From assembly GCA_017541145.1 (NCBI GenBank), contig JAFXZT010000126.1, forward strand, positions 1-32,615: a stretch of DNA of 32,615 bases, in the 5' to 3' direction. Both the position numbers and the translations under genes were made by a program. Source of the DNA: Bacteroidales bacterium (lineage in GTDB: Bacteria; Bacteroidota; Bacteroidia; Bacteroidales; UBA3824). The notes under the pieces were generated by a model, which searched no databases, was not told where the DNA came from, and worked only from the letters and a program-made list of their open reading frames with translations. Shown one piece after another: positions 502 to 31,613 of this stretch (position 1 is its first letter; every line of letters begins with the position of its first letter).

Positions 502-803
502 TTGCTGACCTTATCAGAAAAAAAACATTATTATGCTGCAAACAGTTGCAAGGTGAAGAAGTCGGAAAAGAACTTTTAGAAATAGAAAAAAAAATTTTGA
601 CGTTTTCCGCGCCTGAAAGTTTCACGGGAAACGATAACGCCGAAATACGTTTTGAAAAAGATTTTGAAAAATTATGCGTATATTTGAGCCAAGAATTAAA
701 TTCAGATGTTTCACATAAAACGGTGTTTGAGTTCTTCGCGGCTTACGAGTTCGTGAAAAAACAGAAAGACACCGAAAAAAAACAATTACAAAAATGGAAA
801 TAG
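441..803 (+). CDS. Tail assembly chaperone C-terminal extension (T-like), via -1 frameshift
   Basis: This frame is open from 381 to 803 but offers only a TTG (453) as an early start. A -1 slip on the A10 run at 432-441 (heptamer A AAA AAA in the upstream frame) would join 134 residues of the upstream protein to 120 residues here, giving a product of about 254 aa. The extension is acidic and helical. Codons at 707-721 spell V-S-H-K-T through a degenerate copy of the genome-wide GTTTCACGTGAAAC palindrome. The stop overlaps the start of the next gene (794). Independent initiation at TTG 453 is the alternative. Confidence 0.6.
   Translation: METDLARYFPAFFDTADKKIIADLIRKKTLLCCKQLQGEEVGKELLEIEKKILTFSAPESFTGNDNAEIRFEKDFEKLCVYLSQELNSDVSHKTVFEFFAAYEFVKKQKDTEKKQLQKWK
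708..721. promoter_or_regulatory. parS-like palindrome, degenerate (in CDS)
   Basis: GTTTCACATAAAAC, two mismatches to GTTTCACGTGAAAC. Read as V-S-H-K-T in the chaperone extension. Confidence 0.4.
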
Positions 804-1054
804 TAGAAATTTTTCAGAATTTTGGTTTCCCGATTGCGGTTTCGGTTGTATTGTTCTTTTGCTTATACAAAATTTTTGCAACTGAATTAAAACGTAACGA
901 AGTAACCAGCGAGAGAATTTTTAAATTATATTCTGAGCAAATAACCTTTGCAGAAAAACAAATTGAAAAATTAACGTTTGTCATTTCTGAAAATACAAAG
1001 GCTTATACTGCATTAATCGAAGTTTTACAAGAATTAAAAAACACTTTAAAATGA
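794..1054 (+). CDS. Small membrane protein, holin-like
   Basis: An 86-aa protein with one N-terminal transmembrane helix (about residues 10-28, rich in F, V, L and C) followed by a charged helical tail likely to form a coiled coil. This one-helix-plus-coil plan resembles BhlA/UviB-type holin-like proteins, and the G-F-P-I-A-V opening of the helix recalls small phage YvrJ-type proteins. It overlaps the preceding chaperone frame by 10 nt and the next gene by 4 nt (ATGA), so it is translationally coupled in the tail operon. A lysis role is inferred only. No endolysin is encoded nearby or elsewhere that I can recognise, so it could instead be a structural or superinfection-exclusion membrane protein. 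Confidence 0.5.
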   Translation: MEIVEIFQNFGFPIAVSVVLFFCLYKIFATELKRNEVTSERIFKLYSEQITFAEKQIEKLTFVISENTKAYTALIEVLQELKNTLK

Positions 1055-1245
1055 AAATTGATTTAGCGATTAAAATCGTTACAGAGTTTCAAAAATGGCG
1101 GCGAGGTGAGTCCCCCTATGACGGGGACACCCCCGAAACGCACCGCGTTTTTGACTATTCGCAAAAAGTTTTGGGACAAGCAATAGACACACTTTTGAAT
1201 GTTTCACGCGAAACACTAAAACAGCGAAACGATAAAAAAATATAA
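1051..1245 (+). CDS. Small hypothetical protein with VSRET tag
   Basis: A 64-aa protein I do not recognise. It starts in an ATGA overlap with the membrane protein upstream, which supports translation. The C-terminal part contains N-V-S-R-E-T, encoded by a copy of the genome-wide palindrome (1201-1214, one mismatch). It has no membrane segment or cysteines. It ends the first tail-operon segment. After it come a weak hairpin (1246-1267) and about 240 bp of AT-rich sequence. Confidence 0.55.
   Translation: MKIDLAIKIVTEFQKWRRGESPYDGDTPETHRVFDYSQKVLGQAIDTLLNVSRETLKQRNDKKI
1201..1214. promoter_or_regulatory. parS-like palindrome (in CDS)
   Basis: GTTTCACGCGAAAC, one mismatch, with the flanking T and A of the 16-bp parS. 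Read as V-S-R-E-T. Confidence 0.7.
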
Positions 1246-1305
1246 CTCGGTCTCGAAAAATACCGAGAAAACAAAAATTATTTTTTCAAAAAGTCATAAA
1301 AAAAT

Positions 1306-1365
1306 ATGAGCGAAGTAAAACAAATACCGTTGTCGAAACTTGAAGTTAAATTATTTTTATTGTAA
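1306..1365 (+). CDS. Possible 19-codon ORF (ParB-like N-terminal strand?)
   Basis: A 19-codon ATG frame, MSEVKQIPLSKLEVKLFLL, in an otherwise gene-free stretch. The I-P-L-S-K-L-E-V segment looks like the first strand of ParB/Srx-fold proteins, but the frame stops straight afterwards and no continuation in other frames is visible. It could be a leader peptide, a gene remnant or chance. Confidence 0.15.
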   Translation: MSEVKQIPLSKLEVKLFLL

Positions 1366-1418
1366 GATATAAGTTAACATTTTTTTATAATATTTTTAAC
1401 GTTTTTTTCCGTTATAAA

Positions 1419-1490
1419 TTTGGATAAGTTAACAAAAAACACTAACTTTGTAGTGTAATAAAAAAAACAAAGTAGTACAAATTAAAATTT
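1419..1490 (+). promoter_or_regulatory. Bacteroidetes-type promoter and leader, copy 1
   Basis: TTTG at 1419-1422 is separated by 20 nt from TAACTTTG at 1443-1450, an exact match to the Bacteroidetes -33/-7 pattern. The region up to 1490 (GTTAAC, then an A-rich tract, AAAGTAGTACAAATTAAAATTT) is nearly the same as at 14331-14400 and related to 20806-20875. It drives the gene at 1506. Confidence 0.8.
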
Positions 1491-2690: not shown

Positions 2691-2704
2691 GTTTCACGTG
2701 AAAC
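2691..2704. promoter_or_regulatory. parS-core palindrome, perfect (promoter spacer)
   Basis: GTTTCACGTGAAAC, 14/14, between the -33 and -7 boxes of the tape-measure promoter. Confidence 0.85.
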
Positions 2705-2726: not shown

Positions 2727-2740
2727 TTTTCACGTGAAAC
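2727..2740. promoter_or_regulatory. parS-like palindrome (5' leader)
   Basis: TTTTCACGTGAAAC, one mismatch, ending 9 nt before the tape-measure ATG. Confidence 0.75.
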
Positions 2741-5700: not shown

Positions 5701-6286
5701 AAAGGCTCTGGACGAACAACGGAAAGCGCAAAAACAACAAGCGCAAATTCAGAGCCTACAACAAGCGGCGGACCTCATCACGGCGACAGCAAAAATTTGG
5801 GGACAACTCGGATTTCCGTGGGCGATTCCGGCTATTGCTACAATGTGGACTTCTTTTGCAGTTTCAAAAATCAAGGCGAAAAACGAAACGCGCGAGCAGT
5901 ACGGAGAGGGAACGGTTGAATTACTTGAAGGCGGTTCGCACGCGAGCGGCAACGACATAGACCTTGGCACAAAAAAGGACGGCACAAAACGCCGTGCGGA
6001 AGGCGGTGAATTTTTTGCTGTAATTAACAAACGAAATTCGCGGAAATATAGGTCCGTAATTCCGAATGTGATTCGCTCCCTGAATAGCGGCAACTTTGAA
6101 CAAAAGTTTTTGAACTCTGAAAGCCAAAATTTTGAAATTGTTTCCCGTGAAACAAAATTTACAACTTTGGAAAATGATGTTTCAGAATTGAAAACAATGC
6201 TAAAAAATAAAGTTGACAGATACACCGATACGGATGGAAACCTTGTCGAAGTCAGAGGTACGAATAAACGAATAATTAAAAGATAG
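2750..6286 (+). CDS. Tail tape measure protein
   Basis: An 1178-aa protein, the largest in the genome. It has extended coiled-coil N-terminal heptads (about 10-180), a hydrophobic stretch with A-F-L-A-I-A-G-V-A-G-V-A-A-G (about 239-252), a phage tail-tape-measure-like core with D-x-x-K-A-F-R and G-x-x-x-A-A-M-E patterns, more hydrophobic segments (about 520-600), then long K/E/Q-rich coils (about 650-1050). This composition and length fit tape measures, which set tail length. At the usual 0.15 nm per residue the tail would be near 175 nm. V-S-R-E-T near the C-terminus is a parS-like copy (6139-6152). It is preceded by a promoter flanked by two palindromes. Confidence 0.9.
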   Translation: METPIKYSDLIRPDDSIEKAIQQLEELQKQYAAMAAEIKKQSSEIANGLKNVNGATEQGREKIETAAKETDKLAAAQKQLAFAQSETGKELLKLRAQISDVNAATKKQIALNNAAEGSYNQLSAQYAINKQRLNAMSTAEREAAEQSEKLVTKTREIYEKMKELQKETGQAQLNVGNYASGLEGLEDKLKNAVGLNGKFGDSLLALGRGGAEGRSAFTAMADGAKAFGKTLLELMTNPAFLAIAGVAGVAAGFKWWWDYNDGLIQATRLTKEFTGKSGNDLKAFRNEVSAVADVYGKEFKDVLTAADSLTANFGLTFDESIKVIKDGFAAGVDDGGDFLAGLKQFPAAFKEMGVSAEGYVTILQQTNSGIFGTDGMAAMEKAAQTLRTMSSSTAESLRAIGINANKLSKDLTSGDKSVFVAIQEISAKIATLPDNSKTAANAIKNVFGEIGVKAGQDMIESFATLNTNFEELQKSAGAYNDQQQAIIESQIELNNATSALLDNTDGFFEQLKTDIQVLTNKFLTALINGVIDLYNWFVELYNESVMVRSSIQAFIDPIKITFNVLKNALIGIWDLVKGIGLTMKGVFTLDWDSVTEGISTAANAIPKSFNNAASDIIDTMKGTFDTIENSRLKPIEIPVKVQSDGGEKKTTKGGGLSAKEIEALYKKRLEAQRKYEDAVLALQADGFDKQRKQIELHYNRQIEDLQHLIKTDKQNRETYKLQIILAENNKNKELEKLETEHEIKFLEMQKNALSEQLFLVQKGSEEEYKLKLQSLEYDKKIALLKNQLLPADSRQSEMTIETRFEFQAGQISDEYQNELLRCFDLQQSFNESEFELLKTTETQKTVFRLNAEKERLQKILELNKTAQNKMSDVEVKTIENKIKKIDADIDKAESGQPFWEKIGINIPEEGKKAISESYDFAMEQLNNFMEKRTEAAAQRVADSEREVAAAQAAFDNEVKLAQMGYANNVQEAQRDLALAKEQQKKALDEQRKAQKQQAQIQSLQQAADLITATAKIWGQLGFPWAIPAIATMWTSFAVSKIKAKNETREQYGEGTVELLEGGSHASGNDIDLGTKKDGTKRRAEGGEFFAVINKRNSRKYRSVIPNVIRSLNSGNFEQKFLNSESQNFEIVSRETKFTTLENDVSELKTMLKNKVDRYTDTDGNLVEVRGTNKRIIKR
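6139..6152. promoter_or_regulatory. parS-like palindrome (in CDS)
   Basis: GTTTCCCGTGAAAC, one mismatch, V-S-R-E-T near the C-terminus of the tape measure. Confidence 0.65.
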
Positions 6287-6310: not shown

Positions 6311-6324
6311 GTTTCACGTGAAAA
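6311..6324. promoter_or_regulatory. parS-like palindrome (intergenic cassette)
   Basis: GTTTCACGTGAAAA, one mismatch, ending 10 nt before the ATG at 6335. Confidence 0.75.
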
Positions 6325-8436: not shown

Positions 8437-8450
8437 GTTTCACGTAAAAC
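8437..8450. promoter_or_regulatory. parS-like palindrome (intergenic)
   Basis: GTTTCACGTAAAAC, one mismatch, 2 nt after the stop of the 699-aa tail gene and next to its terminator. The frame here reads M-F-H-V-K-Q-R-F and stops. Confidence 0.7.
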
Positions 8451-8810: not shown

Positions 8811-8824
8811 GTTTCACGGGGAAC
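8811..8824. promoter_or_regulatory. parS-like palindrome, degenerate (intergenic)
   Basis: GTTTCACGGGGAAC, two mismatches, just after the small RNA terminator. Confidence 0.45.
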
Positions 8825-8867: not shown

Positions 8868-8881
8868 GTTTCACGTGAAAT
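8868..8881. promoter_or_regulatory. parS-like palindrome (at predicted transcription start)
   Basis: GTTTCACGTGAAAT, one mismatch, 5 nt after the -7 box and 11 nt before the ATG at 8893. Confidence 0.75.
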
Positions 8882-10828: not shown

Positions 10829-11107
10829 ATGTTTCACGTGAAAAAAATAAAAACATTTGATTTTTTAATCGGACTTTTGTCGGCTGTTGTCGGAGTTGGG
10901 TCTATATGGTTTTTGTTTACTTTCGCGAGGGAAATTTGGTTATTGCTGAATTTTGTTTTTCAGACTTTTGCGCTGTCTTTTTTTTGCAGCGTTTTTGTTT
11001 TATTTTTGGAATCAGGAGAGAAGAGACGAAAAAAGAAAAAACATAATTTTAATACACACAAAAAAAATGAGCAAATTAACAAATTCACTTTCGACCGCGT
11101 TGTCTAA
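10829..11107 (+). CDS. Small two-helix membrane protein (starts MFHVK)
   Basis: A 92-aa protein with two hydrophobic helices (about 12-35 and 38-60) and a strongly basic tail. The start codon lies inside a parS-like palindrome (10831-10844), so the protein opens M-F-H-V-K. It overlaps the next membrane-protein gene by 41 nt, which suggests coupled expression as a module. The plan (two helices, short N-terminus, basic C-terminus) would suit a holin, but no lysin is adjacent. Function unknown. Confidence 0.5.
   Translation: MFHVKKIKTFDFLIGLLSAVVGVGSIWFLFTFAREIWLLLNFVFQTFALSFFCSVFVLFLESGEKRRKKKKHNFNTHKKNEQINKFTFDRVV
10831..10844. promoter_or_regulatory. parS-like palindrome (over start codon)
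   Basis: GTTTCACGTGAAAA, one mismatch, overlapping the ATG at 10829, so the protein begins M-F-H-V-K. Confidence 0.7.
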
Positions 11108-12542
11108 TTTCGCGGTAAAAAATTGGAAGAAACAAATGTTTCGTGATGAATGGCTTGCTGTCATTCTGTTGGTTCTTGTTTTGAAACTTGGTACTTCGGC
11201 GGTTTCAATCTTTTCAGGCTGGTACTACTTACAGAATTTTTACACCGATTTTGTAAGCAGTGAACTGGCGGCGCGTTGCTTTTCGGTGCTGTCTTTGATT
11301 TTAATAGAGTTTTTGAACGCGCTATTTTTAGCCAAATTCTTTAAGTTTGCTTTGCGCGTTGATTTCAAAACAGCCGTAATGCCGTTAATTTGTGCGGCGT
11401 TAACGTTTTCGGTTTCGTTTATAATTTCGACAAACGGAATAGCGGTATACGTTAACGAAAGCGAAACGCAAACGGAATCCGTAAAAACGGACTTTGCCGA
11501 ACAGAAAAACGCCGTTTCACGTGAAACAGAAAAAAACATCGCAGACGTTGAAAGGTATATCGAAACAATTAAGGAGAATCCGGAGAATTGGAGCAACGGC
11601 AAAAGGTGTATTTTGAGTACCGAACAAAACCGCGAAATTGCGGCAGCGTTTAATCGTATCGAGCAATATAAAGAATCAGCGTCAGCGAGAATAGCCGAAA
11701 TTGAAAAAGCGGAATCGGAGGAACTATCAGCAACGGCAACGGAGATAAAAGCCACCGCCGAAAGGTATTACAAAATTGTTGCAATTATAATGTTAATCCA
11801 AATTTCGTGCAGCGCGCTTTTATGGTTTTTCTATTCCAAAATTGCAATGCAAGACAGCCCCACGGACGGGTACGAGGAAAATATAACAGACGTATTGCAG
11901 CGAACCGACAACCTCATAGAAGACGGTATTTCCAACAGATTCGCAAAAAAAATTGCAATGATAGAAACAGCCTTTGCAGATTTGCAGCCGCAAACTGTAA
12001 CACCGAAATCCGATCCGCAGCCAATGCCGGAAGTTCCACGTGAAACAGAAATTAACATCGCCGCAAAGGTTGAACCACCGATCGCACCGAGAAAGCCGAA
12101 AACGGTACGGATAACTGGATTCCAGCCGCAAAATCAAACGGGAACGGAAATTAACGCCGTTAAAGAATCCGTAAAAGCCGTTAATTTATCCGTTAACCAG
12201 CCGTTAATGTCCGTTAACTCCGTAAATGTTCCACGTGAAACAATAGAGAATCACCCCGATTCAACCGTAAATGTTTCCCGTGAAACGCCGGAAAACGTTG
12301 AAGTAAATTCTATTTTTACGGATATTAACGGCGCGGACACGGCTTCCGTGCCTGCCGAATCTTCATCGGAATCTTTATCTGAGAAAAAAACGCCCGTAAA
12401 AAAATGCTTGCTTTGTGGGCAAGAATTAACAGCAAGCCAAATCGCACACCGGGCAAAATTCTGTTCAACGTTGCACCGCGTGCAATATTTTAACGCAAAC
12501 AACGGCAAACAAATTTCCGTTAAAAAAACGAATTTACGATAA
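11067..12542 (+). CDS. Multi-pass membrane protein with coil, linker and C-terminal zinc-finger-like motif
   Basis: ATG 11067 is chosen over an upstream non-ATG start at 10953 because the N-terminal extension lies inside the preceding gene. The 491-aa protein has three helices near the N-terminus (about 28-52, 72-92, 101-126), an E/K-rich coil, a fourth helix (about 232-258), then a long P/T/N-rich linker. The C-terminus has C-L-L-C-G-Q ... F-C-S-T-L-H, a zinc-ribbon-like motif in which the last Cys pair is C plus H. Four V-S/P-R-E-T pentapeptides (sites at 11514, 12033, 12228 and 12273) are encoded by parS-like palindromes, three of them in the linker. I do not recognise the family. Membrane anchoring of a DNA or protein complex is one possibility. 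Confidence 0.6.
   Translation: MSKLTNSLSTALSNFAVKNWKKQMFRDEWLAVILLVLVLKLGTSAVSIFSGWYYLQNFYTDFVSSELAARCFSVLSLILIEFLNALFLAKFFKFALRVDFKTAVMPLICAALTFSVSFIISTNGIAVYVNESETQTESVKTDFAEQKNAVSRETEKNIADVERYIETIKENPENWSNGKRCILSTEQNREIAAAFNRIEQYKESASARIAEIEKAESEELSATATEIKATAERYYKIVAIIMLIQISCSALLWFFYSKIAMQDSPTDGYEENITDVLQRTDNLIEDGISNRFAKKIAMIETAFADLQPQTVTPKSDPQPMPEVPRETEINIAAKVEPPIAPRKPKTVRITGFQPQNQTGTEINAVKESVKAVNLSVNQPLMSVNSVNVPRETIENHPDSTVNVSRETPENVEVNSIFTDINGADTASVPAESSSESLSEKKTPVKKCLLCGQELTASQIAHRAKFCSTLHRVQYFNANNGKQISVKKTNLR
11514..11527. promoter_or_regulatory. parS-core palindrome, perfect (in CDS)
   Basis: GTTTCACGTGAAAC, 14/14, V-S-R-E-T in the extramembrane coil of the membrane protein. Confidence 0.8.
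12033..12046. promoter_or_regulatory. parS-like palindrome (in CDS)
   Basis: GTTCCACGTGAAAC, one mismatch, V-P-R-E-T in the linker. Confidence 0.7.
12228..12241. promoter_or_regulatory. parS-like palindrome (in CDS)
   Basis: GTTCCACGTGAAAC, one mismatch, V-P-R-E-T in the linker. Confidence 0.7.
12273..12286. promoter_or_regulatory. parS-like palindrome (in CDS)
   Basis: GTTTCCCGTGAAAC, one mismatch, V-S-R-E-T, 31 nt after the preceding site. Confidence 0.7.
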
Positions 12543-12657: not shown

Positions 12658-12671
12658 GTTTCACGTGGAAA
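12658..12671. promoter_or_regulatory. parS-like palindrome, degenerate (origin region)
   Basis: GTTTCACGTGGAAA, two mismatches, 9 nt before the tandem 24-bp repeats. Confidence 0.5.
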
Positions 12672-13371: not shown

Positions 13372-14181
13372 ATGAAGTATAGCGTAACTTATAATTTTTT
13401 AGCTGTCAAAAAAATAAAAGAATTAACTGACGTGCAATTGACTTTTGAAGACGTCTGTATTGCGGAGTTAATTCGAGATTTGCAGACAGCGAAAAAGTTC
13501 CCGAAAGTTGACGGCTTTGTCAGATTGCCAAAAGCTGCAATAAATTCCGCGTTTGGTTGGGATTTTTCTCCGAAAACTTTGCTGAGTAAAATAAACCGGT
13601 TGATTGCTGCTGGAGTTGTCGAAAGACATCCGCAGAGTAGAGAATTGGCTGCACCGCTTTATCGGCTCGGCGAAAATGCAGATTTTCTGCAATACACTAA
13701 CCCGGCTGACTTGCACGGCGGAGAACCGAAACCGCCGCAGCCCGAAGAAGGCGGCAGTTTGTTTCCTGATGTTTCACGGGAAACCTCAAACGCAGATCCC
13801 GGTTCGGGAATCGTGAAAGCGGAAACAACACCGCCGGGGAAAAACGATTGCCGCGCGTTAGTTGAATTTTTTAACGAGTTCGCAAAAAAATACGGGTTGA
13901 AAACAGTTCGCGAAATATCCGAAACGCGGCGTAAGAAAATAAAAAAAATCCTTGCCGATTATCCCCCCGAAACAATTAAAGAAGTCTTTCAGAATATTCG
14001 CGACTCGGATTTTTTGCGAGGGTCAAAAGGTTGGAGATTAACATTTGATTTTCTTATCGAAAAATCAAATTTTATAAAAATATTAGAAGGCGCATATTCC
14101 GGCAAAAAAACGTCCAGCATTGAAAAAATGGTTAATAATCTGGATTTGTCGGCGGATGTTGCAGAGTTGGAAACGTTTTAA
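13372..14181 (+). CDS. Replisome organiser / replication initiator-like protein
   Basis: A 269-aa protein. The N-terminal third resembles a winged helix (residues about 20-85: L-S-K-I-N-R-L-I-A-A-G-V-V-E-R). A P/E/G-rich linker follows, containing V-S-R-E-T from a parS-like site (13771-13784). The C-terminal domain ends with F-L-R-G-S-K-G-W-R-L-T-F-D-F-L-I and N-F-I-K-I-L-E-G-A-Y, close to the conserved C-terminal motif of phage replisome organisers and DnaD-like initiators (W-x-x-D-F-x-W-L-I ... N-x-x-K-I-L-E-G-x-Y). These bind the origin and recruit host helicase loader or helicase. The upstream tandem repeats may be its target. Expression may be set by the leader structure. Confidence 0.7.
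   Translation: MKYSVTYNFLAVKKIKELTDVQLTFEDVCIAELIRDLQTAKKFPKVDGFVRLPKAAINSAFGWDFSPKTLLSKINRLIAAGVVERHPQSRELAAPLYRLGENADFLQYTNPADLHGGEPKPPQPEEGGSLFPDVSRETSNADPGSGIVKAETTPPGKNDCRALVEFFNEFAKKYGLKTVREISETRRKKIKKILADYPPETIKEVFQNIRDSDFLRGSKGWRLTFDFLIEKSNFIKILEGAYSGKKTSSIEKMVNNLDLSADVAELETF
13771..13784. promoter_or_regulatory. parS-like palindrome (in CDS)
   Basis: GTTTCACGGGAAAC, one mismatch, V-S-R-E-T in the linker of the replication protein. Confidence 0.65.
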
Positions 14182-14796: not shown

Positions 14797-14810
14797 GTTT
14801 CACGTGAAAA
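14797..14810. promoter_or_regulatory. parS-like palindrome (intergenic cassette)
   Basis: GTTTCACGTGAAAA, one mismatch, 1 nt after a stop and 10 nt before the ATG at 14821. Confidence 0.75.
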
Positions 14811-15258: not shown

Positions 15259-15992
15259 TTAAAAATTACGAAATGCGACGGGCGTTGACTTCGTCGCAAC
15301 TTGCAAAAGATACCAGCACCGATGTTTTGAAACAGTTAATTGTAAAAAACGCGGTGCGCTTAGGACAAACGCTTTCGGACGTTGAACTTGAAGTAATCAC
15401 GTCCGATTTGCAAACGTATCTTTCCGGGCTGCCGATTTCGTTTGCGGAGGTGAGTTTGGTTCTCCGTGAAGGCGTTAACGGAAATTTATCAACTGACAAA
15501 GTTTACAAAATGACCAGTTCGGCTGTGCAAGGGTGGTTTGATTCGTATTTTAAAATGTACGCGAAACAACGCGCGACACTTGTAGCAGAGTTGCAAGGCG
15601 CGGACTTTAAAAAATTGACAGCCGGAGCAACAGACCCGACGGCAATTTTACAAGAAAGCATAAAAAACGACTTTGAAGAATATAAAAAAAATAACAATTT
15701 TTTATATAATAGAATTTCTTTCAAAGTCAATGCTGTTGCCTATGATTTTTTAACAGACGGGATTTTGTCTGTTTCATGTGAAACAAAAAACAAGATGTGG
15801 AAATGGGCGAAAGAAAATGCAAAGTTCTTTCAAAAATCAGAGCCGGATAATTTAATAAAAAAAATTATTCAGGCTAAATTTCCGCCGAAAACGGACACGG
15901 ATTTTTTGGTTAATTTATCAAAAACAAAATTGCTTGAAGTCTTTTTTTCGTCTGTTGAAAAAATTGATTTTAACAAAAATTATGCGATATGA
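15255..15992 (+). CDS. Hypothetical protein, replication-region
   Basis: A 245-aa helical protein. Residues about 60-100 read L-P-I-S-F-A-E-V-S-L-V-L-R-E-G-V-N-G, then a segment ending in W-F-D-S-Y. This resembles a pattern I associate with unnamed Bacteroidetes phage proteins encoded near replication genes, but I cannot assign a function. V-S-C-E-T (15771-15784) is a palindrome variant in which the Arg codon has become Cys. It overlaps the genes on both sides by 4 nt, consistent with one operon. A helicase-loader role is possible by position only. Confidence 0.55.
   Translation: MIKNYEMRRALTSSQLAKDTSTDVLKQLIVKNAVRLGQTLSDVELEVITSDLQTYLSGLPISFAEVSLVLREGVNGNLSTDKVYKMTSSAVQGWFDSYFKMYAKQRATLVAELQGADFKKLTAGATDPTAILQESIKNDFEEYKKNNNFLYNRISFKVNAVAYDFLTDGILSVSCETKNKMWKWAKENAKFFQKSEPDNLIKKIIQAKFPPKTDTDFLVNLSKTKLLEVFFSSVEKIDFNKNYAI
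15771..15784. promoter_or_regulatory. parS-like palindrome (in CDS)
   Basis: GTTTCATGTGAAAC, one mismatch, V-S-C-E-T. Confidence 0.6.
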
Positions 15993-16333
15993 AACAGATA
16001 GAACATCGTTTGCAATGCAGTTGTGTAACGTGGTTTCGGCTACAATATCCGAGTTTGGTTTTGTTCGCTATTCCAAACGGCGGAGCCAGGTCTATAACAA
16101 CTGGCGCGATGTTGAAAGCGGAAGGTGTTTTGGCTGGTGTCGCGGATTTGTTTTTGATGTTCCCCGTGAAACAATTCCACGGGCTGTTTATTGAAATGAA
16201 GACGGACAAAGGGAGGCAGTCTGAAAGTCAAAAAGAGTTTCAAACGCTTGCAGAAAGCAATGGTTACAAGTATGTTGTTTGCAGGTCGTTTGAAGATTTC
16301 AAAAATGAAATTTTAACATATTTAAAACAATAA
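15989..16333 (+). CDS. VRR-NUC domain nuclease
   Basis: A 114-aa protein matching the VRR-NUC fold of the PD-(D/E)xK superfamily over its whole length. F-A-I-P-N-G-G-A-R-S is the N-terminal motif. L-K-A-E-G-V-L-A-G-V-A-D-L-F-L supplies the catalytic Asp, and L-F-I-E-M-K-T supplies the E-x-K. K-G-R-Q-S-E-S-Q-K and G-Y-K-Y-V-V-C-R complete the pattern. Such single-domain phage nucleases act on branched or damaged DNA during replication and recombination. A degenerate parS-like site (16159-16172) is read here as F-P-V-K-Q. The start overlaps the upstream stop by 4 nt. Confidence 0.85.
   Translation: MKQIEHRLQCSCVTWFRLQYPSLVLFAIPNGGARSITTGAMLKAEGVLAGVADLFLMFPVKQFHGLFIEMKTDKGRQSESQKEFQTLAESNGYKYVVCRSFEDFKNEILTYLKQ
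16159..16172. promoter_or_regulatory. parS-like palindrome, degenerate (in CDS)
   Basis: GTTCCCCGTGAAAC, two mismatches, F-P-V-K-Q in the VRR-NUC nuclease. Confidence 0.45.
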
Positions 16334-17166: not shown

Positions 17167-17180
17167 GTTTCACGTAAAAC
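17167..17180. promoter_or_regulatory. parS-like palindrome (intergenic cassette)
   Basis: GTTTCACGTAAAAC, one mismatch, 1 nt after a stop and 9 nt before the dUTPase ATG. Confidence 0.7.
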
Positions 17181-18093: not shown

Positions 18094-18107
18094 GTTTCAT
18101 GTAAAAC
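18094..18107. promoter_or_regulatory. parS-like palindrome, degenerate (intergenic cassette)
   Basis: GTTTCATGTAAAAC, two mismatches, 7 nt before the ATG at 18115. Confidence 0.5.
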
Positions 18108-18569: not shown

Positions 18570-19802
18570 ATGAATTACGGCTTACCTTACATGGGGTCAA
18601 AAAATTTTATTGCGGAGTGGGTTTTGTCGAAAATCCCGCCCCGCACAAATTTTTATGACTTGTTTTGCGGTGGTGGTGCAATAACACACGCGGCATTGTT
18701 AGCGAAAAAACACCGCCGGTTTTTTATGAATGATTTGAATCCGTTTTCCGCGTTGTTTTTCGACGCAGTGTCCGGCAAATATCACAATGAAAAGCGATGG
18801 ATTTCACGTGAAACTTTTGAACGTGAAAAAACAAAAGACCCTTATATTGCGTTTGTGTGGTCTTTCGGGAATAACGGCGCTGATTATTTATACAGCAAAG
18901 AAATCGAACCGTGGAAACGTGCGCTGCATTATTCGCGAGTTTTCGGAGATGATTCTCTTTTGAAAGAAATTGGTGTCCCGTGTTCGAGTTCAACGTGGAT
19001 AAAGAAGAACCACGATTTTTGCAAAGAAAAATATATTTTGTGGTATACGGGAAACGTTATGAAGACAGAGGTGGAGGTGGCAGAAATTCGCAAAAACCTT
19101 TCCGAGAATATCAAAAAAAATACAGAGTATTTGCAAAATTACTTGCTTGACGGTCTTAAAAAATCAGGGAAACGCCCGTGCGACGTTGACCGCTATCTCG
19201 GCACAAATGGAATGGCGAGTCATTATTCCGGCAAGTTGCAATGGGAATTTCCGACAAAAGAAGTATATGAGAAATTACAAAATTTCTTATATTTGCCCGT
19301 GCCGTATTTGGAAATTTACGGCTTGCAAGAATTAATGCAAAGTCTGGAAAGTCTGCAAAGGCTGCAAAGGCTGCAAAGGCTGCAAAGGCTGGAAAGTCTG
19401 CAAAGTCTGGAAAGGCTGCAAAGGCTGCAAAGGCTGGAAAGTCTGCAAAGGATGCAAAGGATGCAAAGGCTGGAATTTACAAATTTGTCTTACAAAGATG
19501 TAAAAATCCTTCCTGATTCCGTTATCTATTGCGATATACCGTATCGCAATACAGCAACATACATCATCAACGATGGCGGTTTTGATTATGAAGAATTTTA
19601 TAATTGGGCGCAAAATCAAACAGAACTTGTTATAATTTCGGAGTATCAAATGCCGGAAGGGTTCACGTGTATCGGGCAAAAATCAAAACGCAGCATATTG
19701 TCGGCGACGGCAAACAACGAAGTTAAAGAATGTTTGTTTATTCCGACAAAACAATTAAATTTGTACAATTATTTGAATAACAGTTTATTTAATTTTGATT
19801 AA
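18570..19802 (+). CDS. D12-class DNA adenine N6-methyltransferase with nonamer-repeat insert
   Basis: A 410-aa protein. Y-M-G-S-K-N-F-I (7-14) and D-L-F-C-G-G-G-A (30-37) form the SAM-binding part, and D322-I-P-Y is the catalytic motif (normally D-P-P-Y; a D-I-P-Y form is seen here). This is the MethyltransfD12 (Dam-like) pattern, which methylates adenine N6 and usually protects phage DNA from restriction. I-S-R-E-T in the N-terminal part is encoded by a parS-like site (18801). Residues 258-302 are an insert of fifteen L-Q/E-R/S tripeptides encoded by 9-bp repeats, just before the catalytic motif. The insert lies in the region where target recognition or dimer contacts are expected. Dedicated promoter. 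The small terminase follows after 2 nt. Confidence 0.85.
   Translation: MNYGLPYMGSKNFIAEWVLSKIPPRTNFYDLFCGGGAITHAALLAKKHRRFFMNDLNPFSALFFDAVSGKYHNEKRWISRETFEREKTKDPYIAFVWSFGNNGADYLYSKEIEPWKRALHYSRVFGDDSLLKEIGVPCSSSTWIKKNHDFCKEKYILWYTGNVMKTEVEVAEIRKNLSENIKKNTEYLQNYLLDGLKKSGKRPCDVDRYLGTNGMASHYSGKLQWEFPTKEVYEKLQNFLYLPVPYLEIYGLQELMQSLESLQRLQRLQRLQRLESLQSLERLQRLQRLESLQRMQRMQRLEFTNLSYKDVKILPDSVIYCDIPYRNTATYIINDGGFDYEEFYNWAQNQTELVIISEYQMPEGFTCIGQKSKRSILSATANNEVKECLFIPTKQLNLYNYLNNSLFNFD
18801..18814. promoter_or_regulatory. parS-like palindrome (in CDS)
   Basis: ATTTCACGTGAAAC, one mismatch, I-S-R-E-T in the D12 methylase. Confidence 0.65.
19341..19475 (+). repeat. Fifteen 9-bp tandem repeats inside methylase
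   Basis: Units AGKMTGSAA (AGGCTGCAA, AGTCTGGAA and close variants) run without gaps for 135 bp, in frame, encoding (S/R)-(L/M)-(Q/E). Copy-number change would keep the frame and alter length by three residues per unit. Confidence 0.95.
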
Positions 19803-22182: not shown

Positions 22183-22503
22183 ATGGAAGAAAATAAAATT
22201 GAAAATGTTTCACGTGAAAACCGTTTCAGAATTAAGGAGGCGGTTTTACGTGCGAGGGCTACAAACAAGGATTTTAAACAAATAGAAATTGCCAAAAAAC
22301 TTTATCCAGATTGTGGAGAAAAAATTGCCGCTATAAATTTTTCGCGCTTGGTCAACAATAAAAAAAAGGCGTTGACCTTCGATGAAATTAAATTTTTGTG
22401 TGAAAATTTAAACGTTTCACCAAATTTTTTAATGGGCTATGAACTTGAAAGAATTGCAGAAAGTCCCGCGCAGTCTGATACTGAAAACGGCAGCGAGGTA
22501 TAG
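22183..22503 (+). CDS. HTH (XRE/Cro-like) regulator
   Basis: A 106-aa protein. K-Q-I-E-I-A-K-K-L-Y-P (about 36-46) and I-N-F-S-R-L-V-N-N-K-K-K are the helix-turn-helix, and F-L-C-E-N-L-N-V-S-P-N-F-L-M-G matches the end of Cro/CI-type domains. It is a candidate phage repressor or switch protein. Its own N-terminus (V-S-R-E-N) is encoded by a parS-like site (22207-22220), so it is a natural candidate to bind that palindrome, though this is untested. Its 3' end overlaps the large terminase start by 65 nt. Confidence 0.75.
   Translation: MEENKIENVSRENRFRIKEAVLRARATNKDFKQIEIAKKLYPDCGEKIAAINFSRLVNNKKKALTFDEIKFLCENLNVSPNFLMGYELERIAESPAQSDTENGSEV
22207..22220. promoter_or_regulatory. parS-like palindrome (in CDS)
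   Basis: GTTTCACGTGAAAA, one mismatch, V-S-R-E-N at the N-terminus of the HTH regulator, a possible autoregulatory position. Confidence 0.7.
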
Positions 22504-23968
22504 TCTTTTATATTTCGCTAAGCAAATAAAGCCTAATTTAGAATTGTGTGAGTTTCACAAAATTTACTATTCTGTTTTAAACAAATTTGCAGACGGCGAA
22601 ATAAAAAAACTGATAATCCAAATTCCACCCCAGCACGGAAAATCGGAGGGGAGTTCGAGACTTCTCCCCGCATTTATGTTGGGGCAAAATCCGAATTTAA
22701 AAATCTGCATCGCTTCGTATTCGACAACGATTGCGCGGGATTTCAATTTGAACGTCCAGCGCATTTTGGAAACAGATGTTTACAAATACATTTTCCGCCA
22801 TACGCGGTTAAACGGCGACGGCGTAAACGTGCATAATTACACGCGAACGAAAGATGTGTTTGAGATTCCGCACTTTGGCGGTAGTCTTCGGGCGGTCGGT
22901 CGCGGTGGTTCTTTAACGTCCAAAACCGTTGATGTTTCGATTTTGGACGATGTTTACAAGGATTACGCGGAGGGTAATTCGCCTATTATCCGCGAGGCGG
23001 CGTGGAAGTGGTACACTACTGTTGTGCGTACACGTCTACACAATAACAGCAGAGAGTTAATTGTGTTTACCCGTTGGCACGAAGATGACCTCATCGGGCG
23101 GTTGGAAAAGTCAGGTGAAAAAATTGTGGACGTTAATTGTTGGGCGGATTTCGACACCGTTGGCGCGGCTGACTGGGTGCGGCTTAATTTTCCTGCGTTG
23201 AAAGTTGGTGAACCGACAGAGTTCGACCCACGTCAGGAAGGCGAGGCACTTTGGGAAAGTAGACACAGCAAAGAAAAACTATTTCGGCAAAAAGAACTTG
23301 ACCCCGTGCAATTTGAATGTCTATTTCAAGGTAACCCGATTTCGGCAGCTGGATTCTTGTATCACTATTTCAAAACGTATGTGTCGGCGGCAGATTTCGG
23401 GACGGTTGTCCGCCGCGGTTCTTATACAGACGTAGCAGATGAAGGAGATGATTTTTTATGCTCAATATCTTACGACGTTGTAAAATCGGATAACACTATT
23501 TTCAACGAAAAAACAAAAAAGGTTGAAAATATTATGTTTGTTTTGGTGCGCGATATTATCTTCACGCAGGACAATATTGAAGTAACGTCTAACTCTGTAC
23601 CGCTGATGTGGAACGTAACCGGGACTGAATGCAATTATATCGAAAGCAATAATGGCGGCAGCGGTTTTTATAAAATTGTTTCACGTAAAACACTGGGTCA
23701 TTGTGTCGAATTTTCGCAGACGGCGAACAAAGAAAGCCGTATTCTAACGTGCGCGGGCGGCGTGAATAATCAAATTATTTTTCCGCTCGGGTGGGAGACC
23801 AGATGGGAAAAGTTTTATTTTCACGTGAAACATTTTCTGCGAAACTTCAAAGCAAACAAACACGATGACGGCGTGGACACGCTTACGGGAATATACGAAA
23901 AAGAAATTTTAACGTACAATCCGGGCGGTTATAATAATATTAGAAAAGGAATTAAAAGAAGAAATTAA
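22439..23968 (+). CDS. terL: Terminase large subunit
   Basis: A 509-aa ATPase/nuclease that pumps DNA into the prohead. Walker A is Q-I-P-P-Q-H-G-K-S-E (61-70) and Walker B is V-S-I-L-D-D (166-171). F-T-R-W-H-E-D-D is the usual coupling segment. The C-terminal RNase-H-like nuclease has S-Y-D-V-V-K-S-D and H-D-D-G-V-D-T-L. Two parS-like sites fall in its C-terminal half (23678, V-S-R-K-T; 23818, F-H-V-K-H), the second close to the nuclease motif. The ATG at 22439 lies within the HTH gene; a later start would shorten the N-terminus before Walker A. Confidence 0.93.
   Translation: MNLKELQKVPRSLILKTAARYSLLYFAKQIKPNLELCEFHKIYYSVLNKFADGEIKKLIIQIPPQHGKSEGSSRLLPAFMLGQNPNLKICIASYSTTIARDFNLNVQRILETDVYKYIFRHTRLNGDGVNVHNYTRTKDVFEIPHFGGSLRAVGRGGSLTSKTVDVSILDDVYKDYAEGNSPIIREAAWKWYTTVVRTRLHNNSRELIVFTRWHEDDLIGRLEKSGEKIVDVNCWADFDTVGAADWVRLNFPALKVGEPTEFDPRQEGEALWESRHSKEKLFRQKELDPVQFECLFQGNPISAAGFLYHYFKTYVSAADFGTVVRRGSYTDVADEGDDFLCSISYDVVKSDNTIFNEKTKKVENIMFVLVRDIIFTQDNIEVTSNSVPLMWNVTGTECNYIESNNGGSGFYKIVSRKTLGHCVEFSQTANKESRILTCAGGVNNQIIFPLGWETRWEKFYFHVKHFLRNFKANKHDDGVDTLTGIYEKEILTYNPGGYNNIRKGIKRRN
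23678..23691. promoter_or_regulatory. parS-like palindrome (in CDS)
   Basis: GTTTCACGTAAAAC, one mismatch, V-S-R-K-T in the large terminase. Confidence 0.65.
23818..23831. promoter_or_regulatory. parS-like palindrome (in CDS)
   Basis: TTTTCACGTGAAAC, one mismatch, F-H-V-K-H in the large terminase. Confidence 0.65.
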
Positions 23969-24970: not shown

Positions 24971-24984
24971 GTTTCACGTAAAAC
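24971..24984. promoter_or_regulatory. parS-like palindrome (intergenic cassette)
   Basis: GTTTCACGTAAAAC, one mismatch, 1 nt after a stop and 8 nt before the ATG at 24993. Confidence 0.7.
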
Positions 24985-26818: not shown

Positions 26819-26832
26819 GTTTCACGTAAAAC
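26819..26832. promoter_or_regulatory. parS-like palindrome (intergenic cassette)
   Basis: GTTTCACGTAAAAC, one mismatch, 17 nt before the ATG at 26850. Confidence 0.7.
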
Positions 26833-26849: not shown

Positions 26850-27164
26850 ATGTTAGCAAAATTCAATGACGGGGTAAAAGATTTGCCCCTTGAACAAATT
26901 AACAAAGAAAATTACATTCACGAAGACAAAAGCGGGCGTTATGTACACGCAGTTATTGAAGTGAAAGCGTACAGCCCCGTTGACGGTCGAAAAATTAGTA
27001 GCCCCCAATTACAATTTTTTGACCTCGCAATGGTTAAAAGGGGACTTCTTGAAAACCTCAAAAAACAAGGTTACACCGTTAATGTAGTTTTTGACCCCCG
27101 TGAAAAAGCGGTTTCACGTGAAACCGAAACAAACAACGAAACAAAAAAAAGGAAAAATAATTAA
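26850..27164 (+). CDS. Small structural or head-associated protein
   Basis: A 104-aa protein, unrecognised. It has a beta-rich core (Y-V-H-A-V-I-E-V-K-A-Y-S-P ... L-Q-F-F-D-L-A-M-V-K-R) and a charged, low-complexity tail that contains V-S-R-E-T from a perfect parS core (27111-27124). It lies between portal and scaffold, where head accessory proteins are common. Preceded by a palindrome cassette (26819-26832), 17 nt before its ATG. Confidence 0.55.
   Translation: MLAKFNDGVKDLPLEQINKENYIHEDKSGRYVHAVIEVKAYSPVDGRKISSPQLQFFDLAMVKRGLLENLKKQGYTVNVVFDPREKAVSRETETNNETKKRKNN
27111..27124. promoter_or_regulatory. parS-core palindrome, perfect (in CDS)
   Basis: GTTTCACGTGAAAC, 14/14, V-S-R-E-T in the C-terminal tail of the 104-aa protein. 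Confidence 0.8.
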
Positions 27165-28543: not shown

Positions 28544-28557
28544 TTTTCACGTGAAAC
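28544..28557. promoter_or_regulatory. parS-like palindrome (capsid leader)
   Basis: TTTTCACGTGAAAC, one mismatch, 111 nt before the capsid ATG. Confidence 0.7.
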
Positions 28558-28668: not shown

Positions 28669-29706
28669 ATGAGTTTGGTTTTAACAAGATTGCAAAATTG
28701 GCGCATGGAAAATCCGGAGTTCGATAAAAATATGACTCGCCCCGGTCAATATGGCGCTTTGAACTTTTTTGCAGAACAGACAAAAGCAGGCAATTCGATT
28801 ATCCGTCCTGACGTGATTGCGAGAGCGGAGGCAAGTATCGGCAACACCGTACAAATTCCCGTTATTGATTACGATTCGACTGTTACAGTTGCTAACACCC
28901 GCACTTGTACGGTTGCAGATGACGAAAACACTTCTGCACTTTACACCGTTACATTCGTAACTTACGCTACTGGTTTTACGATGGTTCCTGCGGCGTATAT
29001 GAACAACGAAATTTCTTACGAGCACGATTGGCGAAGAAAAATGGAAAAAATCGCCCGTGCCTTGGCAAACGCGTTGGACATAGCAGCCGTTACCGCGTTG
29101 GACGCAAACAAAACGTTGGTATTGAACGAAGCACTTAATCACACTTTTGCGTCTGGCGTTTTGAGTGTAGCGAATACAGATTGGGACAACGCCATCGGAG
29201 ACCTTAACGCAATGATGGGGTCAAACGATTATTTCGGCGGTATTCACGTTATCGGCAATTACGGCACGGAATCAATTATCAACCGTTTAGCGCAATATTC
29301 TACTTACAACGAGGCAAACAAAACCTTGACATATCAGGATAAAACTTTGCATTTCACGGGTAACATTGCAAACGGCTCTGGACAACGTGCAACTTTCTAT
29401 GCAGTAGAAGACGGCAACGTTGCATTGTTTACGAGATACGACCGTGAGACGGTACGCGGTACGAAGAGCGGCGACCACGAATGGAGTAAGGTTCAGATCC
29501 CGTTTTTGGGTGGCGTTCCTGTTGGCTGTCATTACTACACTGCGGTTGGCGACCAGTCCGCTATTGCCGGAGCAGCAACGGACGATTTGACTTGCGCTGT
29601 AAAGGAATATTTCGGATTTTCGCTTGACGCGGCGTTTGTTGTCGCATACAACAGCAGCACCGCAACGGTTGCAAACCCGATTTTGAAAGTTGAAGTTGCA
29701 GCGTAA
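28669..29706 (+). CDS. Major capsid protein (HK97-fold, putative)
   Basis: A 345-aa protein, typical capsid length. It follows the scaffold-like gene. Features expected of HK97-type capsids: an N-terminal arm, R-P-D-V-I-A-R-A-E-A (about 45-54), N-T-V-Q-I-P-V-I, a central helix R-K-M-E-K-I-A-R-A-L-A-N-A-L-D, and a beta-rich C-terminal half. It is highly soluble, with no tags from the palindrome inside the gene. It is an isolated transcription unit: long leader with hairpin and parS-like site (28544) upstream, strong terminator at 29768-29795 downstream, as expected for the most abundant protein. Confidence 0.85.
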   Translation: MSLVLTRLQNWRMENPEFDKNMTRPGQYGALNFFAEQTKAGNSIIRPDVIARAEASIGNTVQIPVIDYDSTVTVANTRTCTVADDENTSALYTVTFVTYATGFTMVPAAYMNNEISYEHDWRRKMEKIARALANALDIAAVTALDANKTLVLNEALNHTFASGVLSVANTDWDNAIGDLNAMMGSNDYFGGIHVIGNYGTESIINRLAQYSTYNEANKTLTYQDKTLHFTGNIANGSGQRATFYAVEDGNVALFTRYDRETVRGTKSGDHEWSKVQIPFLGGVPVGCHYYTAVGDQSAIAGAATDDLTCAVKEYFGFSLDAAFVVAYNSSTATVANPILKVEVAA

Positions 29707-29767
29707 TTAAAAAAAACTTCGTTCTTTGTTTTGATTGATATAATTTAATTTACTCGAATGTTGCTTT

Positions 29768-29795
29768 GAGCGCGTATTTTTTACGCGCTCTTTTT
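29768..29795 (+). terminator. Strong terminator after capsid gene
   Basis: GAGCGCGTA (29768-29776) pairs with TACGCGCTC (29782-29790) around T5, followed by T5. The next ATG is only 13 nt further on, so downstream expression depends on read-through or an internal promoter I cannot see. Confidence 0.85.
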
Positions 29796-29808
29796 ATTAT
29801 ACAAAAAT

Positions 29809-31152
29809 ATGATACGCATTAAAGAAATACAAAAACAGTTGAAAAACGTTGTCGGTTGGGAGCAAGGTATTACGCCCGATTTGCATATAAGCGAAGATTT
29901 GACTGAATCCGAAAGCGGACTTTACTTTCAGGGCGGACACCCACTTTGCACTTTGCAAAACATAAAATCGACAATGCCCGAAAATTACATTTTAAAATAT
30001 TCGGAATGGGACGAAACAAAAAACTACCTGAAAGGCGACAAAGTAAGATTTAATGGTTACGCATGGACGGCAGCGGCTGACAATGTAAACACGTCCCCCG
30101 ATGTAGATTTTAACGGGGATTACACCGCCGATTATTCCGCCGAAACTTGGCAGCCGTTTAATTTTCTGGAAGACTATTTGCAGACGTTGACGGACAAGGC
30201 AATAGCAGACACCGTTAACCGCTTTATTACGGAAAAACTTGTTTCACGTGGAACAAAAAATTTGATTGAAAGATTAACGTTTTTTGACGGTGCGGGACGG
30301 TTAAAGGATACAATCGGCAATAACGGCAAATTGGTTGGTTTTGAAATTGTCCCTTTGCGGTCTTTGGGCGTAACTACTAAGATTGAACGAATCGGGTTGC
30401 AATTCACGGGCGGCACGGGTGTAATTAAGATTTACATTTTTCATTCTTCGCAGACTGACCCAATTTACACCTACGATTTGAATTTTGACAACCAGCGCGG
30501 CACGTTTCAATGGTTCGACTTAAAGGATTGTTATTTGCCTAACATGATAACCGCCGAAGACAATTTGAACACCAACAGCGGCGGCGCGTGGTATTTGTGT
30601 TACAATCAAAACGACCTCCCGTCCGGTATGTACGCAATTAATTTTTACCGCGATTGGAGCCGTGAGCCGTGCGGGACGTGCAATAAGGGAAATTTAGAAA
30701 ACTACAAATTAATAACACAATTTTTGCAGGTTTCACCGTGTCAGAATTACGCTCCGCAAACCTTTGCACAATATCCTGAATTATGGGACGTTCCGCCCGT
30801 CTACACAAACACCCTGAATTACGGTCTAAATTTGGAAATTTCGGTCGGCTGTGATTTGACGGATTTTATTTGTATGCAGCGCGGAATGTTCGCGACGGCT
30901 TTACAAAAAACTATGGCGTACAACGTTTTGAAAATAGCGGCACTCAATCCCGATGTCCGCGTTAACCGTTTTCAAAGTAATGTTTCAACGATGGATATAA
31001 TGTTTGAAATTGACGGCAATACAAACGGGAGGGAAACTGGATTGAAGTCTGAACTTGACACGATTTACAAGGCTTTGAGTTTAGACACAAACAATATTGA
31101 CCGTATTTGCCTAACGTGCCACAACGGAGGAGTAAAATATAAAACTGTTTAA
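29809..31152 (+). CDS. Structural protein with CBM5/12-like segment
   Basis: A 447-aa protein. Residues about 66-116 match a chitin-binding/CBM5-12-like pattern: W-D-E-T-K-N-Y-L-K-G-D-K-V, then F-N-G-Y-A-W-T-A-A and a closing W-Q-P-F. The rest is aromatic and beta-rich, without a catalytic signature, and with several Cys near the C-terminus. It lies between the capsid and head-tail genes, the slot for head fibres, decoration or neck proteins. The carbohydrate-binding module suggests host-surface or mucus binding. V-S-R-G-T at 30241 is a parS-like site. Confidence 0.55.
   Translation: MIRIKEIQKQLKNVVGWEQGITPDLHISEDLTESESGLYFQGGHPLCTLQNIKSTMPENYILKYSEWDETKNYLKGDKVRFNGYAWTAAADNVNTSPDVDFNGDYTADYSAETWQPFNFLEDYLQTLTDKAIADTVNRFITEKLVSRGTKNLIERLTFFDGAGRLKDTIGNNGKLVGFEIVPLRSLGVTTKIERIGLQFTGGTGVIKIYIFHSSQTDPIYTYDLNFDNQRGTFQWFDLKDCYLPNMITAEDNLNTNSGGAWYLCYNQNDLPSGMYAINFYRDWSREPCGTCNKGNLENYKLITQFLQVSPCQNYAPQTFAQYPELWDVPPVYTNTLNYGLNLEISVGCDLTDFICMQRGMFATALQKTMAYNVLKIAALNPDVRVNRFQSNVSTMDIMFEIDGNTNGRETGLKSELDTIYKALSLDTNNIDRICLTCHNGGVKYKTV
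30241..30254. promoter_or_regulatory. parS-like palindrome (in CDS)
   Basis: GTTTCACGTGGAAC, one mismatch, V-S-R-G-T in the 447-aa structural protein. Confidence 0.65.
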
Positions 31153-31154
31153 TT

Positions 31155-31613
31155 ATGATTTCTACACTTTTGGAGCGGGTAAAACGTTTTAATTCTGATT
31201 TGACAGAGGGAAAAATCTTTCAGGAAGTTATAAAAGAGAATGAAAGCGTTATCGTTGATATGAACGCCGAAAACCAACTTTTTGAAAAAGGCGTTAACGC
31301 GCTCGGAGTTTCAATTTCTTCGTATAGACCGTACACCGACAAAACGGTCGAAATAAAAAAAATGAAGGGGCAACCGTTTAACCGCGTAACCTTACGCGAC
31401 ACCGGCGACTTCCATTCGGCTTTTTTCGTCCGTGTTTCACGTGAAAATTTTTCTATTGATTCGACGGATTGGAAAACAAAAAAACTGGTTAAAAAATACG
31501 GAGACCAGAAAGGCGATATTTTCGGTCTGACAGATGAAAATTTGACAGAATTAATTACTGAATATGTCGCTCCCGAAGTGTTAGAAATTGCAAAAAAAAT
31601 GATATTACAATGA
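31155..31613 (+). CDS. Head-tail/tail completion protein (gp10-like, putative)
   Basis: A 152-aa protein. The segment N-Q-L-F-E-K-G-V-N-A-L-G followed by R-V-T-L-R-D-T-G-D-F-H-S-A-F-F-V resembles HK97-gp10-like tail completion proteins of Bacteroidetes phages, which usually lie between capsid and tail genes, as here. V-S-R-E-N (31434) is a palindrome copy inside the gene. It starts 2 nt after the upstream stop and overlaps the next gene by 4 nt. Confidence 0.5.
   Translation: MISTLLERVKRFNSDLTEGKIFQEVIKENESVIVDMNAENQLFEKGVNALGVSISSYRPYTDKTVEIKKMKGQPFNRVTLRDTGDFHSAFFVRVSRENFSIDSTDWKTKKLVKKYGDQKGDIFGLTDENLTELITEYVAPEVLEIAKKMILQ
31434..31447. promoter_or_regulatory. parS-like palindrome (in CDS)
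   Basis: GTTTCACGTGAAAA, one mismatch, V-S-R-E-N in the gp10-like protein. Confidence 0.7.

Follow-up and report, generated by a model that had tools for sequence, protein, structure and literature searches.

The closest described counterpart of the sites analysed here is found in the virulent Bacillus phage phi29, whose chromosome is entrapped in spores by host Spo0J, as PMC9437464 recounts with reference to Meijer et al. 2005. Counting as a site any 14-mer with at most two mismatches to the dyad GTTTCACGTGAAAC, we find on the phi29 genome (NC_011048, 19.3 kb) four one-mismatch sites and one two-mismatch site, mostly GTTTCACGTGGAAC; together with the lack of ParA or ParB among its annotated genes, this analogous case indicates that phages carrying host parS without ParB exist. 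The stretch of DNA considered here, contig JAFXZT010000126.1 of the Bacteroidales assembly GCA_017541145.1 (32,615 nucleotides at full length; hereafter the window), is a phage that likewise has several parS sites of host type and no ParB of its own, but it differs in carrying 32 of them, about one per kb and mostly genic, in an apparent Bacteroidales host and an unrelated phage family, and in that they are degenerate like those of the host genus. New with respect to phi29 are the site density, the spread through genes and the host phylum. On our best reading, the window presents parS sites of host type arrayed along the whole of a complete phage genome that lacks partition genes; host ParB is probably the protein that reads them and is captured on the phage DNA, a reading that overlaps with the titration and carriage explanations weighed below.

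A phi29-like 18-kb contig (G408/L298; IMG/VR 3300029906_000047), with a DNA polymerase of the protein-primed type, carries three close pairs of perfect dyads, at 5526/5552, 12131/12155 and 15315/15353, which lie between genes by the positions of its open reading frames (ORFs). Other described systems share single features with the window. The chromosomal ParABS system of Bacteroidales uses the same 14-bp dyad, and in the host genus cluster the tolerated mismatches are similar to those of the window, but its sites are clustered (seven in 8 kb in the window's host genome), whereas the phage sites are genome-wide and have no linked parA or parB. Cluster A mycobacteriophages carry about 30 dispersed short stoperators, many near gene ends, which are asymmetric and serve as targets of a repressor that the phage itself encodes; the window resembles them in the number, dispersal and frequent gene-end position of its short sites and departs from them in that its sites are dyads. 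KorB of plasmid RK2 is a ParB-fold CTPase clamp with dispersed OB sites that can act over more than 1 kb, as described in PMC11790492; the dispersed sites for such a clamp are the likeness, but KorB comes from the plasmid itself and works with KorA to repress promoters, whereas no ParB-type gene was found in the window. A DNA-binding protein of the host is similarly co-opted by phages whose genomes carry many densely placed sites for the regulator CtrA (PMC9437464); CtrA is a transcription regulator, however, and the account of these phages in that paper is one of regions of high density rather than of a genome-wide array. The open-licence papers searched include none on dispersed parS arrays in phages, a result that cannot prove their absence from the literature.

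The phage genome is complete and circular, at 32,474 bp. An exact 141-bp repeat stands at the two ends of the window, and the sequence of a close relative (G098, IMG/VR contig 3300037453_000239, a 25.9-kb fragment with about 87% identical DNA) continues through the end junction, so the genome is closed and no partition gene lies hidden beyond the window.

32475..32615, strand.: exact copy of 1-141, closes the circle (end comparison)

The earlier note on this DNA had seen no partition gene, and we agree: the ParB model TIGR00180, run in six frames over the whole bacterial genome that holds the contig, matched at two places, neither on the window's contig, and no ParA, ParB or integrase families are among the matches listed for the 47 window ORFs (25 of 33 Pfam and 25 of 63 PHROG families, the first of each table). 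Gene limits throughout are those of ORFs and are not curated. Portal, virion, tape-measure and terminase genes put the phage near Bacteroidota phages of the B40-8/B124-14 kind, the portal being matched by 75 phage records, every one below 60% identity; the other genes include a rep-like gene, an ERF annealing protein, a dUTPase, a D12 methylase, a VRR nuclease and a radical-SAM protein.

The array runs from 619 to 31447 and comprises 3 perfect, 24 one-mismatch and 5 two-mismatch sites, with a further three places at three mismatches. That it is real had been said in the earlier note, whose three perfect and five two-mismatch sites stand; its total of 31, its 23 one-mismatch sites and its start at 708 give way to the present figures, the site at 619 having been missed. 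The sites follow, all with strand given as ".", with the number of mismatches in brackets and the state in G098 last.

619..632: site GTTTCACGGGAAAC (1), in gene, reads SFTGN; identical in G098
708..721: site GTTTCACATAAAAC (2), in gene; three mismatches in G098
1201..1214: site GTTTCACGCGAAAC (1), in gene, VSRET; a different one-mismatch site in G098
2691..2704: perfect site, intergenic; identical in G098
2727..2740: site TTTTCACGTGAAAC (1), 10 nt upstream of the tape-measure start; two mismatches in G098
6140..6153: site GTTTCCCGTGAAAC (1), in the tape-measure gene, VSRET; identical in G098
6311..6324: site GTTTCACGTGAAAA (1), in a stop-to-next-start gap; identical in G098
8437..8450: site GTTTCACGTAAAAC (1), directly past a stop codon; identical in G098
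8811..8824: site GTTTCACGGGGAAC (2), intergenic, beside the promoter-like 8831-8863; one mismatch in G098
8868..8881: site GTTTCACGTGAAAT (1), intergenic, followed by a start after 12 nt; letters unchanged in G098, where the alignment has a gap at the final base
10831..10844: site GTTTCACGTGAAAA (1), at an ORF start, MFHVK; no G098 sequence there
11514..11527: perfect site, in gene, VSRET; no G098 sequence there
12033..12046: site GTTCCACGTGAAAC (1), in gene, VPRET; no G098 sequence there
12228..12241: site GTTCCACGTGAAAC (1), in gene, VPRET; no G098 sequence there
12273..12286: site GTTTCCCGTGAAAC (1), in gene, VSRET; no G098 sequence there
12658..12671: site GTTTCACGTGGAAA (2), intergenic; no G098 sequence there
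13771..13784: site GTTTCACGGGAAAC (1), in the replication-initiation-like gene, VSRET; no G098 sequence there
14797..14810: site GTTTCACGTGAAAA (1), in a stop-to-start gap; no G098 sequence there
15771..15784: site GTTTCATGTGAAAC (1), in gene, VSCET; no G098 sequence there
16159..16172: site GTTCCCCGTGAAAC (2), in the VRR-NUC gene, FPVK; no G098 sequence there
17167..17180: site GTTTCACGTAAAAC (1), in a stop-to-start gap; no G098 sequence there
18094..18107: site GTTTCATGTAAAAC (2), intergenic; no G098 sequence there
18801..18814: site ATTTCACGTGAAAC (1), in the methylase-like gene, ISRET; perfect in G098
22207..22220: site GTTTCACGTGAAAA (1), within the helix-turn-helix (HTH) gene, VSREN; identical in G098
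23678..23691: site GTTTCACGTAAAAC (1), in the terminase gene, VSRKT; identical in G098
23818..23831: site TTTTCACGTGAAAC (1), in the terminase gene, FHVK frame; identical in G098
24971..24984: site GTTTCACGTAAAAC (1), in a stop-to-start gap; identical in G098
26819..26832: site GTTTCACGTAAAAC (1), intergenic; identical in G098
27111..27124: perfect site, in gene, VSRET; identical in G098
28544..28557: site TTTTCACGTGAAAC (1), intergenic, ahead of the virion structural gene 28669-29706; identical in G098
30241..30254: site GTTTCACGTGGAAC (1), in gene, VSRGT; identical in G098
31434..31447: site GTTTCACGTGAAAA (1), in gene, VSREN; identical in G098

Independent bases at the window's composition would give 0.11 sites, in line with the figure of about 0.1 proposed before. 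In 200 shuffles with proteins and pooled codon usage preserved, the sites average 4.1 and number at most 10, the average being raised because peptides encoded by the sites, such as VSRET, stay in the shuffled sequences, while first-order Markov sequences (n=60) have a mean of 0.27 and a maximum of 3. Palindromes built from scrambled half-sites with the same letters (n=200) reach at most three copies each in the window. The array lies far above the shuffles that preserve codons and composition, which rules out a composition or codon artefact, and with the scrambled palindromes they rule out a chance origin. Isolated half-sites are at background (4 against 4.9 ± 2.5 expected), so the enrichment concerns the whole dyad; binding to half-sites, which PMC7022226 reports for some ParBs, was considered as the basis of the array and set aside on the same count. 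Even spacing as a packaging or looping device was also rejected, the gaps being no more regular than random (coefficient of variation 0.86 vs 0.96, P=0.25). Nor are these nucleoid occlusion sites of the Noc type, for which PMC7383237 gives A at half-site position 1 and C at position 6; here G stands at position 1 in 83% of half-sites and A at position 6 in 89%.

Nineteen of the 32 sites lie fully inside genes, where 15 use the frame of Val-Ser-Arg-Glu-Thr, three that of Phe-His-Val-Lys and one, at 619, the third; the latter has a GGG variant that avoids the TGA stop which the consensus would create in that frame. Comparison with G098, which has 21 sites, indicates that these sequences are kept as DNA. 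Twenty window sites can be aligned, the remaining 12 falling where G098 has no sequence; the motif is largely retained in this close relative, 19 of the 20 being still sites and 14 identical. Divergence is 2.5% inside sites, 9.7% in the 30-bp flanks and 13.2% overall. Selection, as judged from this comparison, keeps the sites at the DNA level, because, among codons that keep their amino acid, synonymous change is far lower inside sites (2/42) than outside (1536/6038; p=0.001). The same alignment bears on an mRNA hairpin, an alternative put forward in the earlier note and considered here for the neighbourhood of start codons. The dyad would by our own reading give a 5-bp stem, and seven sites lie near start codons, but the changed dyad pairs comprise 34 one-sided changes and no compensated one, which contradicts a conserved stem; with most sites inside genes and the window free of Rfam matches at gathering scores, we give the hairpin next to no probability.

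The bacterial genome that holds the contig (G000; 4.63 Mb in 192 contigs, 97% complete, 4.2% contamination) has adjacent ParA and ParB genes, with ParB on contig 48, and three close matches of its ParB, at 66-70% identity, come from metagenome-assembled genomes called Bacteroidales. R173 and G201 are described as absolutely conserved in ParB (Jalal et al. 2020, PMC7383237), and by hand alignment to the numbering of that paper the host protein has Arg and Gly at the parS-reading positions and Lys at 184. A weak second match to the ParB model (28.8 bits) lies on contig 5 of the same genome (L002, 1492-2235), in a 247-aa protein beside a lysozyme-like gene.

A chromosomal parS is present in the host genus, in the form of a degenerate cluster. 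One-mismatch sites occur in 15 of 18 genus genomes, the listed places lying close together, and in the window's host genome seven sites fall within 8 kb around ybeY, mnmG and uvrC, genes recognised by eye. The genus clusters used for comparison, 12 loci of 11 of these 15 genomes (which are related, not independent), contain 67 sites, of which one is perfect, 49 have one mismatch and 17 have two; they too have a site in ybeY in the reading frame most used by the phage (VSRET, VSHET). The half-site profiles of phage and genus cluster are similar, and the one-mismatch spectrum of the window has a cosine of 0.74 to the host genus and of 0.44 to other genera, the latter spectrum hand-copied from among the matches listed. 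The half-site GTTCCAC makes up 28/52 in other genera among the matches listed, against 3/24 in the window, 0/49 in the genus clusters and 0/42 in the second phage lineage introduced next. On contig 99 of the host bin (L020) there is a second mnmG/ybeY-like copy whose sites match those of G003, which suggests strain contamination of the bin.

A second, deeply diverged lineage (lineage II) is represented by G407 (IMG/VR contig 3300037455_000233; 32,349 bp), in which an end repeat was looked for and none found. It has 23 dispersed sites in 32.3 kb, none of them perfect, and pieces related to it have 10 sites in 15.9 kb (G414), four in 7.7 kb (G415), seven in 11.6 kb (G416) and four in 4.5 kb (G417); G414-G416 match window structural genes, and G417 appears to belong to the same group, its sites being spaced at 205 and 587 bp like those of G407. 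Structural blocks are common to G407 and the window (portal 52%, virion protein 54%), but window 10829-24245, with its rep-like, HTH and terminase genes, has no detectable counterpart in G407. The ParB model has no match above the cut-off (58 bits) in G407 or G098, the latter giving an 11-bit stretch with E 0.0025, and no linked parA and parB genes are among the matches listed for the ORFs scanned in these phages. Four of the 23 G407 sites lie on aligned codons; none shares its position with a window site, though one is 20 bp off, and at least two others share gene gaps with window sites by our reading. Site density is thus kept between the lineages while most comparable positions differ.

The earlier note proposed a search of related phages for the same density; arrays are seen in G098 and the lineage of G407 and not in the other relatives counted. 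Ten phage records have no site, except one with a single two-mismatch site (L041 was read for 50,000 of its 53,579 bases); 12 terminase-related loci have none; 34 of 35 capsid-gene loci have 0-1 site, the 35th being G098; and 26 of the 30 loci L301-L330 have 0-1, the other four being array phages, with none in L180 and L188, the remaining two of that set of 32, which are counted among the capsid-gene loci. This array-less set amounts by name to about 65 distinct records, many of them fragments or partly read and some contigs recurring across sets, and it rejects the array as a property of the whole family. A portal match occurs in four of 393 bacterial genomes of the order, the window's included, and the short stretches examined in the other three have no sites. 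Other viral stretches among the matches listed (120, 75 and 118 counted) reach at most seven sites (L444), six (L251, within 2.3 kb) and five (L079, L124, L350). Whole-length arrays are seen, among the matches listed, in these two lineages only, and the array is most simply a derived feature. L444 is an 11.8-kb viral locus with three parS-like sites near each end (173-239, 11721-11776) and one at 5114. Separately, window 794-1054 (86 aa, membrane-segment-like by eye) has a relative in G407 at 30% identity and no match in 54 array-less relative loci.

Several observations weigh against host ParB as the reader. Those on placement and orientation are as one would expect of regulatory sites: 13 of the 32 sites fall in non-coding DNA, a class that makes up 14% of the sequence (p=0.001 with 17% as the tested share), the sites at 8811 and 8868 flank a promoter-like sequence, and the GTAAAAC variant is always on the same half (7/7 window sites), which is unexpected for a freely turned dyad. 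Five of the 13 non-coding sites also have some 50 bp of similar surroundings in common, so some sites may have spread by copying. The features of placement and orientation are relevant to an alternative raised in the earlier note, the operator of a phage regulator, which we consider in a stoperator-like form: a phage DNA-binding protein, for example that of the HTH gene below, would occupy all 32 sites and so silence the genome, much as the L5-type mycobacteriophage repressor acts at dispersed stoperators.

22183..22503, strand +: Cro/C1-type HTH gene (weak match), candidate rival reader (family match)

Such control would account for the enrichment between genes, for the seven non-coding sites that sit 9-18 nt upstream of a start codon and for the fixed GTAAAAC orientation, and the HTH gene exists and carries a site itself. 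The HTH protein is, however, not conserved with the array, having relatives in five of 54 array-less relative loci and none detectable in G407, although an unrecognised reader particular to each lineage could be imagined. Most sites are within genes, nine of the 11 promoter-like sequences stand more than 200 bp from any site, and the sites are dyads of no fixed orientation, GTAAAAC excepted, most other mismatch types occurring on either half. An operator that matched both the parS core and a spectrum like that of the host genus would moreover be a coincidence. The operator explanation is accordingly disfavoured, and we hold it to be very unlikely. Five similar promoter-like stretches (1396-1466, 13148-13218, 14308-14378, 18499-18569 and 20783-20853) have no parS-like site within 150 bp; the pattern scanned for, TTTG-N-TAnnTTTG, which we take to be promoter-like, fits four of them.

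The other points against host ParB concern the host itself. The host genome without the window contains 15 sites with no more than two mismatches, compared with 21 for a reversed control pattern over the whole genome (at up to one mismatch, four vs none), and 80 genomes of the order outside the genus have 0-7 sites at up to one mismatch and the control 0-4, often no fewer than the dyad; because dyad counts alone do not exceed the control, chromosomal parS is marked by clustering and the one-mismatch excess. The spectra also disagree in detail, with GTTCCAC half-sites in 3/24 window vs 0/49 genus sites, C-to-T at position 5 in 5/24 vs 3/49 and T-to-A at position 2 in 0/24 vs 7/49, and the cosine of lineage II to the genus is lower, at 0.58. 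Assignment to this host rests on co-binning, with 4.2% estimated contamination and two mnmG-like genes, together with the mismatch spectrum.

For host ParB as the reader, we envisage that the protein, present already when the phage enters, would load as CTP clamps at every site and slide, so that the whole phage genome would be coated and handled like the host origin region, held or moved by ParA and offered to condensin. With 32 sites to the roughly seven of the chromosomal cluster, one phage genome could attract the bulk of ParB loading, and the host origin would lose ParB as replication proceeds. The earlier note had proposed that the phage recruits or titrates host ParB: indirect support for sites read by that protein comes from the genus mismatch spectrum, the ParB residues, the selection on DNA and two lineages with no common detectable regulator, and this evidence does not tell segregation, condensation, titration and disruption apart. 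Coating, positioning and condensation of the phage DNA are in our judgement the more likely selected benefit, with titration of ParB next, because the sites are spread through genes and not clustered in non-coding DNA; from that same spread it would seem that covering the molecule from end to end counts for more than the mere number of sites, and titration would then likely be a side effect or second benefit.

A pure decoy, in which the array titrates host ParB and disturbs chromosome segregation or division during lytic growth, overlaps with this explanation and gains from the excess of sites over the chromosomal cluster, multiplied by phage copy number, and from the absence of integrase families among the matches listed. 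Decoy sites could cluster in non-coding DNA, however, yet those of the window span genes in all three frames (15, 3, 1), and in many bacteria loss of ParB is not known to be rapidly harmful; we consider a pure decoy possible though unlikely. Stable extrachromosomal carriage, in which the phage would ride on host ParABS as a plasmid-like prophage or in a carrier state, also overlaps with coating by host ParB, and strikes us as distinctly unlikely. Partition needs no more than one or a few clustered parS sites, B40-8-type phages, which we take to be virulent, are among the nearest cultured relatives, and the repressor-like gene is only weak, whereas the circular contig was found in a bacterial bin and phages with plasmid-like lysogeny are described as using chromosome segregation genes (PMC10294663).

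The evidence leaves evenly balanced a broader proposal, that in some Bacteroidales phages the entire genome would be a dispersed host centromere with tens of host-fitted sites at 0.7-1 per kb, mostly changing position between lineages, selection acting on the array as a whole and ParB coating the DNA before phage expression. If this is true, a virus would use the chromosome-segregation protein as coat, anchor or sink through DNA sequence alone, and nature would offer a 32-kb system with tens of places for ParB to load, in which to study clamp spreading, DNA condensation and replicon competition. Bacteroidales are not known as spore formers, and phi29-type use of host ParB would then extend beyond those that are. 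The sites would also offer a sequence signature to link uncultured phages with their hosts.

Three repeats in the window complete the description. A 120-bp stretch at 20425-20544 is duplicated at 28275-28394 (87%, 7.85 kb apart), with similar stretches several times in G098; tandem 78-bp repeats occupy 9891-10520, in a tail-fibre-like gene with DUF285/leucine-rich repeats; and 9-bp tandem repeats at 19300-19493 encode Leu-Gln/Glu-rich repeats within the D12 methylase-like gene.

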